A stretch of 64,000 nucleotides of DNA. It comes from Paenibacillus glycanilyticus. GTDB taxonomy: Bacteria; Bacillota; Bacilli; Paenibacillales; Paenibacillaceae. The position numbers were made by a program, and so were the translations under genes. The notes under the pieces are model-generated. The model did no database searches. It was not told the DNA's origin and saw nothing but the letters and a program-made list of their open reading frames with translations. This document shows positions 51,451 to 54,342 of this stretch, in pieces. The stretch lies in the NCBI RefSeq assembly GCF_030161375.1, contig NZ_BSSQ01000001.1, positions 1 through 64,000 of the forward strand, in the 5' to 3' direction. Within the stretch, counting starts at the first letter, position 1. Each line of letters starts with the position of its first letter.

Positions 51451-52086
51451 TTAGTTTTCGGAAGATACCGTGAAACGCTCGTTCAGATGCGCTGCATTCT
51501 CGATCTCATCCACAAGCGCAATGGCAAAGTCCGCATAACTTACATAGCTGTTGCCTTTCGAATTCACGAGCAGATGGTCTTTCCCTTTCGTATAAGAACC
51601 GGTGCGCGCTCCTTCCGGGTCAAAGAAAGCGGACGGGCTGATGAACGTCCATTTCAGAGCTGTTGTTTGTTTAAGGTCTTCCAGGTTTTGTCCTTGATTT
51701 TTCGCCGTGGCAAGGAACATCTCCGGGAACTCCGGCGTGTTGAAGAGCTGGACCGTCTTCGCTTCATCCACGTACAAGCTGCCCGCTCCGCCAATGACGA
51801 TAAGGCGGGTGTCCGATCCGGACAACGCTTCGATCAAGGCTTTGCCAGCCTTAACATGCAGCTCTTCTTGGCCAAGCGGCGCGCCAAAAGCGTTCACGAC
51901 TACGTCGAACCCTTGCAGGTCGGCCGTTGTCAGGTCAAACACTTCTTTTTCGATAACTTGAACGCCTTCCGTAGTTAGTTTGGAACGGTTCCGTACAACC
52001 ACCGTTACTTCATGTCCGCGGCTCAGCGCCTCTTTGACAACTTGTTGACCGGCTTTGCCGGTAGCACCTACAACTGCAATTTTCAT
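51451..52086 (-). CDS. NAD(P)-binding oxidoreductase (YwnB-like)
   Basis: 211 residues from the ATG at 52086, with GAGGAGG 7-8 bases upstream. Atypical short-chain dehydrogenase fold: the GATGKAGQQVVKEAL nucleotide loop followed by VVVRNRSKL as the NADP-type second strand. It lacks a clear YxxxK pair, as usual in the NmrA/YwnB type. Downstream of the Rrf2 regulator gene in the same direction, so probably its target, perhaps in a thiol or quinone stress response. Confidence 0.85.
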   Translation of the reverse strand: MKIAVVGATGKAGQQVVKEALSRGHEVTVVVRNRSKLTTEGVQVIEKEVFDLTTADLQGFDVVVNAFGAPLGQEELHVKAGKALIEALSGSDTRLIVIGGAGSLYVDEAKTVQLFNTPEFPEMFLATAKNQGQNLEDLKQTTALKWTFISPSAFFDPEGARTGSYTKGKDHLLVNSKGNSYVSYADFAIALVDEIENAAHLNERFTVSSEN

Positions 52087-52159
52087 ATTAAATTCCTCCT
52101 CAAATGAATGGTTATCCAACGTGATGATGCATGCTTCGATAGCATAAGCCTGATTAACG

Positions 52160-52594
52160 TTACGTTTGTTGATTCGTACGAATAAGATCCGCGACCAGTT
52201 CTTCCAGCGTAATTTCCGAGAGGACGTTTTCCATCGCATGCTGCGCTTTCTTCAACACCAGCTCCAGAACAACTTGTATGCTTGCTCCAACCGGACACTG
52301 GGGATTAGGCTCCTCATGAATGTGAAAAAGCTGCCCCTCCTCAACGACATCCACCGCTCGAAAAATATCCAGCAGCGTAATCTCGCTCATTTCCCTTGTC
52401 AAATAAGCGCCTCCGGTACCTGCCCGAACTTGAACAAGTCCCGCTTTTTTCAATTGGCCCAGTAGCCTGCGTATGATGACCGGGTTTGTATTGACGCTGC
52501 CCGCGATCCACTCCGAGGTGTTATGGGCATCCTTCGATATTTCTAGCAAGGATAAAATATGGACCGCTATGGAGAAACGGCTGCTGATTTTCAT
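52160..52594 (-). CDS. Rrf2-family transcriptional regulator (YwnA-like)
   Basis: 144 residues from the ATG at 52594, with GCGGAGG about 11 bases upstream. The winged helix begins MKISSRFSIAVHILSLLEI with the recognition helix around NPVIIRRLLGQLKKAGLV and the wing RAGTGGAYLTR. There is a single cysteine (NPQCPVG), so it does not carry the three-Cys Fe-S site of IscR/NsrR. It may sense a thiol modification or a small molecule. A perfect palindrome overlaps its promoter, indicating autoregulation. The NAD(P)-binding oxidoreductase gene follows after about 75 bp. Confidence 0.92.
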   Translation of the reverse strand: MKISSRFSIAVHILSLLEISKDAHNTSEWIAGSVNTNPVIIRRLLGQLKKAGLVQVRAGTGGAYLTREMSEITLLDIFRAVDVVEEGQLFHIHEEPNPQCPVGASIQVVLELVLKKAQHAMENVLSEITLEELVADLIRTNQQT

Positions 52595-52621
52595 GGTTTG
52601 CGTTAACCTCCGCTGTAATAT

Positions 52622-52659
52622 GTTGTAACTATTGTAGTTACAACTGGGGTAGAAGTCAA
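52622..52659 (-). promoter_or_regulatory. Rrf2 gene promoter with overlapping operator
   Basis: On the minus strand TTGACT (52659-52654), 17 bases, TACAAT (52636-52631). The -10 sits inside a perfect palindrome, GTTGTAACTA and TAGTTACAAC with a 3-nt spacer (52622-52644). Binding there would block RNA polymerase, the usual mode of an autorepressing Rrf2 protein. Confidence 0.85.
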
Positions 52660-52693
52660 CGACGCTACGGTTGTTTCGGTTGATTGGTCTACG

Positions 52694-52873
52694 GTTGTTT
52701 CGGTTGATTGCTCCGTAGTAGTTTGTTCTTTGATTCAATTTTCTATAGGTTGGAACAAACGTACAAAGTCGCACTCAACTCGAAACAACGCTCCGCTTAC
52801 CGGTTTAAACCACTTCAAAAGCTGTTACAACATTGAAGCTGTTACAACATTCACAAAAGACAAGGGAAACTTT
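52694..52873. repeat. 180-bp tandem repeat, unit 1
   Basis: The first 126 bp (52694-52819, beginning GTTGTTTCGGTTGATTGC) recur at 52874-52999 with a single mismatch. The rest of the unit is diverged but carries GTTACAAC half-sites at 52824 and 52841 and a TTGTCT where the -35 would be, that is, a decayed operator module. A shorter piece of the repeat start also occurs at 52669. Confidence 0.9.
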
Positions 52874-53053
52874 GTTGTTTCGGTTGATTGCTCCGTAGTA
52901 GTTTGTTCCTTGATTCAATTTTCTATAGGTTGGAACAAACGTACAAAGTCGCACTCAACTCGAAACAACGCTCCGCTTACCGGTTTAAACCACTTCAAAC
53001 CACTTGTTGTAATAACGAAGGTTACAACACGAGTAAAAGTTAAGGAAAAACTC
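52874..53053. repeat. 180-bp tandem repeat, unit 2
   Basis: Second unit. Its end contains a degenerate operator (GTTGTAA...GGTTACAAC, 53006-53028) with TTAACT 17 bases away, at the same place in the unit as the half-sites of unit 1. Part of the repeat (CTCAACTCGAAACAA) appears again at about 53050. Confidence 0.9.
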
Positions 53054-53128
53054 AACTCGAAACAAACTCCGCTGGCGGGTAACTACATCACAATGAAAAA
53101 TCTCGGCTCCCCTTGATTAGAACAGGTC

Positions 53129-53166
53129 GTTGTAACCATTGTAGTTACAACTAGCATGAAAGTCAA
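53129..53166 (-). promoter_or_regulatory. Second full promoter-operator module, 500 bp upstream of the Rrf2 gene
   Basis: Palindrome GTTGTAACCA-TTG-TAGTTACAAC (53129-53151, one mismatch) with TTGACT, 17 bases, TACAAT on the minus strand, matching the module beside the Rrf2 gene. It faces the same direction but has no gene immediately after it. Confidence 0.75.
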
Positions 53167-53184
53167 GATCAATAAAAGTTCCCT

Positions 53185-53410
53185 CGAAAATGCTACAGCA
53201 GAGCTGTAGTTGGTCTATGTTGTACGAAATACAGCATATTAGCCTCGATTTACACCAAAAAGAAAATATAATGCACGTAATGCAGTATATTCCTTATAAT
53301 CGAGACTATATGTTCTCAACCAGCCGATTATCCTGCATTCTCTACAATGCAGGTCCCGTACTAGGGACAATTCCTTCAAATATGCTGCATTGCGTGCAAC
53401 GGAGCGAACG
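53185..53410. repeat. Interspersed intergenic repeat with several small hairpins
   Basis: Inverted pairs CTCGATT (53244) / AATCGAG (53298) and CTGCATT (53333) / AATGCAG (53346), plus several TGCA-rich motifs (ATGCACGTAATGCAG, CTGCATTGCGTGCAA). Frames on both strands are open by chance. It resembles repeats I recall between genes in other Paenibacillus genomes, but this is memory, not a search. Confidence 0.5.
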
Positions 53411-53485
53411 GTAGCGAACGGATAGAAGCGGATCTGATTTGTTTTCGGGAACTTTTTATCCACCATGAAATCCAGAATTGAATCA

Positions 53486-53514
53486 TTGACAAAAATATTT
53501 TTATGTGATATAAT
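53486..53514 (+). promoter_or_regulatory. Consensus sigma-A promoter of the MBL-fold gene
   Basis: TTGACA, 17 bases, TATAAT: exact consensus. A partly symmetric TTACAACTGATC-TTTA-GATCTGTAA follows within the leader and could be an operator. The leader is about 90 nt. Confidence 0.85.
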
Positions 53515-53610
53515 ATTAAATTTTATTATTTACAACTGATCTTTAGATCTGTAATATAGTCACATGACCTCGGCCGGGTCCCTTCATTTTGCGCGAGGAG
53601 TGTGACCTTT

Positions 53611-54342
53611 ATGCAAGCTCAACTTGCCGTATTATCCATAAGTGCCCCTGTTATGGGAAGAATAGATACCGTTCATCCTGTATGGATCGGGAATGATCAA
53701 CATCAATTGCTGCTGGATACCGGTTATCCGGCCCAGCTTCCTCAGCTTCAGGCTGAGATCGAAAGAGCTGGCGGCAGTCTTGCCAATTTAACTCATATTC
53801 TAATGACGCATCAGGACATTGACCATATCGGCAATTTACCGGAATTAACGTCAAATGCCGGGATCAAAGTGTTGGCCCATCCACTCGAGAAACCATACAT
53901 TCAAGGCGACAAAAGACTTATCCGTTTCACCGACGAAGCAATCGCAAGCATAGACCGGATGCCGGACTCCGTACCGGAGTCGTTCAGGAGCGGTTTGAAA
54001 CGGATGATGCTGAACCCGCCTAAAGCTACTGTTCATCATGAACTAATAGGCGGAGATGATCTCCCCTATTGCGGAGGCATTACGGTTATCGACACTCCTG
54101 GCCATACGCCGGGCCATATTAGCTTTTATCATAAACCTTCGCGTACCTTTATTGCCGGAGATGCCTTGACGGTGAGAGACGGCGAGCTTTATGGAGCAGA
54201 TCCTACCACAACGCTAGACCCGAATACCGCGCAAGCTTCCATTTCCAAATTGCTTGATTTCGACATCCAAACCGTCGTCTGCTATCATGGCGGAATATAC
54301 AATAAGCGAGTCATGGAACGTTTGGCCGAACTTGCACAATAA
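53611..54342 (+). CDS. MBL-fold metallo-hydrolase
   Basis: 243 residues from the ATG at 53611 (GAGGAG 10 bases upstream; a GTG at 53602 is too close). The metal motif is THQDIDHIG, with Asp replacing the second His of the classical HxHxDH. Further ligands are PGHTPGHIS, AGDAL and CYHGG near the end. Substrate unknown. It has its own strong promoter and terminator. Confidence 0.88.
   Translation: MQAQLAVLSISAPVMGRIDTVHPVWIGNDQHQLLLDTGYPAQLPQLQAEIERAGGSLANLTHILMTHQDIDHIGNLPELTSNAGIKVLAHPLEKPYIQGDKRLIRFTDEAIASIDRMPDSVPESFRSGLKRMMLNPPKATVHHELIGGDDLPYCGGITVIDTPGHTPGHISFYHKPSRTFIAGDALTVRDGELYGADPTTTLDPNTAQASISKLLDFDIQTVVCYHGGIYNKRVMERLAELAQ

Follow-up and report, generated by a model that had tools for sequence, protein, structure and literature searches.

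Two promoter-operator modules among hairpin elements upstream of a putative YwnA/SifR-type Rrf2 regulator gene in a Paenibacillus clade

SifR of Streptococcus pneumoniae is described, in the sections of its report considered here, as a quinone sensor of the Rrf2 family with a single cysteine and the operator TGTAA-N9-TTACA. Direct targets named there are catE, ywnB, yhdA and fre; trxB is listed as a possible target. The same sections mention the ywnAB gene pair in Bacillus subtilis and call the function of YwnA unknown (PMC9218516).

A related locus is found in the window, i.e. the whole analysed stretch of 64,000 nucleotides, which belongs to the draft genome of Paenibacillus glycanilyticus (36 contigs, 6.65 Mb). 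The gene of an Rrf2-family regulator of 144 AA is located at 52160-52594 on the minus strand (Pfam Rrf2, 112 bits). Directly downstream of it follows, at 51451-52086 on the minus strand, a ywnB-like gene for an NAD(P)H-binding protein (Pfam NAD_binding_10), and thus the locus has the same gene pair as ywnAB of B. subtilis. The nearest PDB sequences of the regulator are 1ylf and 1xd7, the latter being YwnA (PDB 1XD7), to which the protein is a close sequence relative. Its sole cysteine, Cys100, lies inside a PNPxCPxG stretch and aligns with YwnA. According to these sequence features (Rrf2 family with YwnA as near relative, the lone cysteine in PNPxCPxG, and TGTAA-N9-TTACA at the promoter), the protein is presumably a quinone-sensing, single-cysteine repressor of the YwnA/SifR type. 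HypR, a hypochlorite sensor with two cysteines, was ruled out, since there is only one cysteine and no widely spaced pair, and the NCBIfam HypR model gives 55 bits versus a cut-off of 180.

Promoter-operator modules upstream of the regulator gene

Four modules were delineated on the minus strand upstream of the regulator gene, using sequence inspection, palindrome search, promoter scan and comparison of genomes for the intact ones and repeat search and unit alignment for the others. The proximal module P2 (52622-52659; five genomes compared) consists of the promoter TTGACT-17-TACAAT at 52659-52631 over a perfect 10-3-10 palindrome at 52622-52644. The distal module P1 (53129-53166; six genomes compared) is located 507 bp upstream of P2 and carries the same promoter at 53166-53138; in its palindrome at 53129-53151, the 8-base half-sites are perfect and one inner pair does not match. 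In both modules, the -10 sits within the palindrome. P3 (53006-53043), which was additionally found by palindrome search, has retained the operator core TGTAA-N9-TTACA (53006-53028) and lost the -10; TTAACT is found in the place of the -35 and CTTCGT in the place of the -10. P4 (about 52824-52869) is broken: at 52841 there are two direct half-sites 17 bases apart, with neither a palindrome nor a -10, and the module contains a 17-bp internal repeat. The first-pass annotation had proposed a multiplication of the promoter-operator at the Rrf2 gene, with a perfect palindrome under the gene's promoter, an intact second module at 53129-53166 and decayed copies near 52841 and at 53006. Two intact and two decayed modules are indeed present and the coordinates were right.

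The palindrome of the module, GTTGTAAC-N7-GTTACAAC, contains the exact TGTAA-N9-TTACA core. Allowing one mismatch, it occurs at three sites in the 6.65-Mb genome, which are P1, P2 and P3; allowing two mismatches, five sites were counted in the whole genome versus two for the reversed control. When the core was shortened to TGTAAC-N7-GTTACA, again with one mismatch allowed, nine sites were found versus 15 in the control, i.e. no genome-wide excess, and a regulon based on this short core alone was therefore rejected. Without mismatch, the short core is found only in P1 and P2. A plain promoter scan of 52500-53700 resulted in five promoter-like sites versus 3.1 ± 1.8 in shuffled sequences, which is not above chance; thus, promoter likeness by itself is no proof. 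The fused promoter and operator is specific, with no control match across 394 genomes of the family.

The divergent metallo-hydrolase gene (53611-54342) has a 12-of-12 consensus promoter of its own at 53486-53514, about 320 bp from P1, which makes it unlikely that P1 serves this gene as promoter or operator. Its leader at 53550-53610 (GACCTCGGCCGGGTC and neighbouring bases) looks well conserved in the relatives compared. The filler between P1 and the metallo-hydrolase promoter (53180-53480) contains recurring TGCAGTATA-like words; a similar filler is present at loci L025 and L028 and absent at L026, L027 and in genome G016.

The hairpin element within the 180-bp units

The two 180-bp units share 126 bp with one mismatch, whereas the other 54 bases differ at 29 positions in an ungapped comparison; hence, the near identity does not extend over the entire units. 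The near-identical 126 bases correspond to an imperfect palindrome of about 120 bp, termed hairpin element in the following, plus some flank, and the decayed operators fall in the divergent 54-base part. The 180-bp repeat noticed in the first-pass annotation is therefore real with regard to its 126-bp block, although the near identity claimed for entire units is not, and that its bulk is a dispersed element had been missed. Likewise, the recent duplication that had been proposed fits the element block of this genome only; for the whole unit it is ruled out by the strongly diverged operator parts.

Two complete copies are present on the minus strand: copy B at 52684-52805 (118.3 bits to the element model R1, which was built from 14 copies; fold -34.4 kcal/mol, z -4.9) and copy A at 52865-52985 (113.3 bits; -37.4 kcal/mol, z -5.9). 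Elements folded alone gave -33.6 to -37.4 kcal/mol and z values of -4.0 to -5.9. The truncated left arm of a third copy is located between P1 and P3 (53050-53079, minus strand) and was recognised by its sequence and a shared 16-mer family (D5). A 24-bp tandem repeat of 1.9 copies was found by repeat search at the element's end (52665-52710, minus strand). Since the element is palindromic, both strands can match the model.

Above 100 bits, 23 copies were found in seven genomes, including the genome of the window. Nine of them lie at the Rrf2 locus, where each of the six clade genomes has a strong copy. The 14 copies elsewhere are located between the genes of an ABC-transporter ATPase and its permease (seven genomes), behind an RND-type transporter gene (three genomes), between the genes of a thioesterase and polyphosphate kinase (ppk; three genomes), and, in G016, at one additional site. 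The element is truncated at the RND site in G000, G007 and G010, and further genomes show remnants or unclear gaps at the ppk site, which indicates that the element is old at its dispersed sites and often decaying. It has terminal inverted repeats and occurs at more than one site, and in this it resembles a MITE. There was no match in the plasmid or phage collections, and carriage by plasmids or phages was thus dismissed. A known structured RNA was rejected as well: SNORD43, the only Rfam match at E ≤ 1 within 52000-54000, stays far below the gathering score. Weaker matches to the model range from 22.8 to 73 bits and several are probably due to chance. Those with 41-57 bits at L048, L065, L049, L051, L067 and L053 (genomes G006, G030, G031 and G049) lie beside near-identical translated stretches, which are perhaps ribosomal RNA regions.

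Occurrence of the modules and conservation of P1

The module was found at up to one mismatch in 111 of the 394 family genomes. Two modules side by side occur only in G000, G009, G010, G027 and G036, all of which belong to this clade, at a limit of one mismatch, by which weaker second modules could be missed and G006 itself was missed. In G007, P1 is followed by a run of N, and P2 is not readable; in G145, two modules are located on different contigs. Modules free of mismatches are P1 of seven genomes, including an orphan P1 in G016, and P2 of the window. The named relatives are Paenibacillus species.

Thirty module loci from the 111 genomes were read. An Rrf2 gene is found at the module in 22 of them, and in 20 of these 22 the reading frame has its first start codon 2-16 bp past the module. 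Among the other eight loci, six modules precede a gene for an NmrA-like NAD(P)-binding reductase and one a ywnB-like gene. In a separate comparison of upstream regions, in which the gene passed the motif filter at 12 of 30 loci, an operator within three mismatches was present in ten of the 12 and in neither L080 nor L092. For the 12 non-clade loci L029-L040, a proximal operator within three mismatches was present in seven and in none of the other five. In the outgroup G006, where the regulator has 80% identity, a single module precedes the gene and the element is absent from this place. A second operator-like palindrome was observed just behind the Rrf2 gene in other lineages (L031, L033, L034, L169, L177 and L184-L186) and in G006 (G006:C1:1042629), where it lies ahead of ywnB; judged by sequence, this may be an operator duplication by another layout.

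P1 is present in six genomes whose regulators are at least 93% identical, and five of them also show P2. The doubling had been taken for recent in the first-pass annotation, which does not hold, because the two-module layout is common to at least five genomes. In all six, pairwise comparison shows no difference in the -35 or in either half-site of P1 (22 of 22 defining bases kept) and the -10 reads TAnnnT, whereas the mean identity of the flanks is 0.33 and 0.32, values which were obtained without gaps and are too low for the closest pairs. The identity of the half-sites is partly ascertained, since P1 was found through the palindrome; the -35 and -10 are both outside the search pattern. The six genomes represent about four independent lineages on a weak tree, in which one of five inner branches is well supported. 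For P2, the -35 and the first half-site are identical in five genomes, the second half-site has an identity of 0.88, and the flanks have 0.40 and 0.38. The spacers of P1 and P2 are unlike within each of the five genomes in which both are readable; therefore, whole-block copying does not account for the uniformity of P1, and a block-wise homogenisation by P2 is ruled out. An unchanged P1 amid drifting DNA suggests that P1 still works, and the distal module probably serves as a second promoter which is controlled by the repressor and maintained by selection. The additional start site considered in the first-pass annotation thus gains support for P1 from its conservation in six of six genomes.

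The same conservation weighs against the assumption that the modules are left over from recombination of the hairpin element, with only P2 being of importance and P1 a passenger. P3 and P4 are plainly decaying, as are element remnants at other sites, and in G016 a P1 persists without the regulator. In this genome, no regulator match was obtained at E ≤ 1e-20; the MFS and metallo-hydrolase genes, which flank ywnB-ywnA in the window, adjoin each other with the orphan P1 between them. Its palindrome still has perfect 8-base arms, from which it follows that persistence of P1 without a regulator is possible. Against such a neutral origin stand the 22 of 22 bases kept in P1 in each of the six genomes versus about 0.33 in the flanks, and P1 is more symmetrical than P2 in four of the five genomes with both readable. 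We consider a neutral array rather unlikely.

The distances between P1 and P2 are 115, 187, 240, 280 and 507 bp in the five genomes. Such variation is expected if P1 is a free-standing promoter. Alternatively, P1 and P3 might be auxiliary operators, which increase the concentration of repressor around P2 in a cooperative or looped repression; P3, which has lost its promoter but kept the operator core, would fit well. However, P1 keeps the -35 and TAnnnT as well, and the distances are not whole helical turns. The identity of P1 relative to its flanks and the variable distance speak for a promoter that works rather than for an auxiliary operator tied to its position, and the latter appears distinctly improbable.

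It is still more doubtful that P1 exists to transcribe the hairpin element as a functional part of a leader RNA. Paired columns of the element change on both sides in six of 34 pairs and folding of the P1 leader gives z -5.4, but any imperfect palindrome should give covariation and fold signals of this kind, whichever strand is read. Furthermore, the element is also located at unrelated genes, is truncated there in some genomes, and matches no Rfam family. Titration, the first option in the first-pass annotation, in which extra operators would soak up repressor and set the induction threshold, ranks lowest and is scarcely plausible: three operator cores lie within 530 bp, but two or three extra chromosomal sites would probably be few for a repressor produced from the same operon, and just one more conserved, imperfect site was recognised beyond the Rrf2 locus.

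Proposed origin, a candidate second target and comparison with known systems

We regard it as fairly probable that an autoregulated operon of the YwnA/SifR type underwent an element-linked tandem repetition, after which both P1 and P2 were retained as additive promoters under the control of the repressor. An old low-copy hairpin element would have come to lie in the leader of the Rrf2 operon. Promoter-operator and element would have been tandemly repeated, via recombination between element copies, in the common ancestor of a small Paenibacillus clade. The two modules that would have stayed intact are P2, close to the gene, and P1, at a distance of 115-507 bp upstream of P2. As the -10 is inside the palindrome in both, the repressor should shut both promoters. 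Upon modification of the cysteine by a quinone, P1 and P2 would both fire and their transcripts would add, the P1 transcript having a longer leader which carries the hairpins. A transcript begun at P1 would have the long leader RNA that was considered in the first-pass annotation. P3 and P4 would be decaying by-products of element recombination in the lineage of this genome, of which P3 may still bind the repressor.

A conserved site similar to the operator was found upstream of an operon for a DsbA/thioredoxin-like and a DsbB-like protein; gene pairs of this kind are named bdbDC. DsbB proteins hand electrons to quinones. The promoter TTGACA-17-TACACT (TAAACT in G007) of this operon overlaps GTTGTAACTA(C/A)ACTGG(CT/TC)ACAAG, which has two mismatches to the extended palindrome, and each of the six clade genomes that carry the regulator has this operator (G000:C19:327047-327547; L013, L136). 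The DNA search in G006 gave no match to this region. In G016, in which the regulator was not detected, the promoter is shortened inside the operator and the operator is thus broken; this loss is suggestive only, since it is a single event and the promoter is altered as well. The operon is a candidate second target of the regulator and would, if confirmed, tie a quinone-sensing repressor to the disulfide pathway. A wider reading, in which hairpins drive a cassette of variable copy number, recombination adding and removing units of promoter-operator and hairpin and selection having fixed two as additive promoters, and the same repressor controls the DsbA/DsbB-like operon, linking quinone sensing to extracytoplasmic disulfide formation, is put forward tentatively as the less probable extension.

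If P1 works, the locus is a natural case of a repeat element multiplying a whole repressor-controlled promoter with selection keeping two copies, and the dosage of an autoregulated stress switch would have evolved via the number of promoters instead of their strength. Since unit numbers and spacings vary among species of a single genus, this is open to direct tests.

Regulator, operator and repeats of this sort all belong to kinds already known. In the open-licence literature searched, no report was found which combines Rrf2, tandem promoters and operator, none which links Rrf2 with BdbD, and nothing that looks relevant for Rrf2 with DsbB; neither a fused promoter-operator that is doubled among hairpins at this gene, limited to one clade and conserved in it, nor the disulfide target was met there. 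The hairpin element is like the short palindromic or MITE-like intergenic repeats of bacteria (e.g. RU, REP) in being short, non-coding, imperfectly palindromic and dispersed between genes, but unlike these, it has only three to four strong copies per genome, at sites mostly shared by descent. Compared with SifR, as far as it is covered by the sections considered, the Paenibacillus system shares the operator TGTAA-N9-TTACA, one conserved cysteine and a ywnB homologue, which is a target of SifR and here the next gene. It differs from SifR in the two intact modules among hairpin elements which precede the regulator gene, and from the SifR targets named in those sections in having a DsbA/DsbB-like operon as candidate target.
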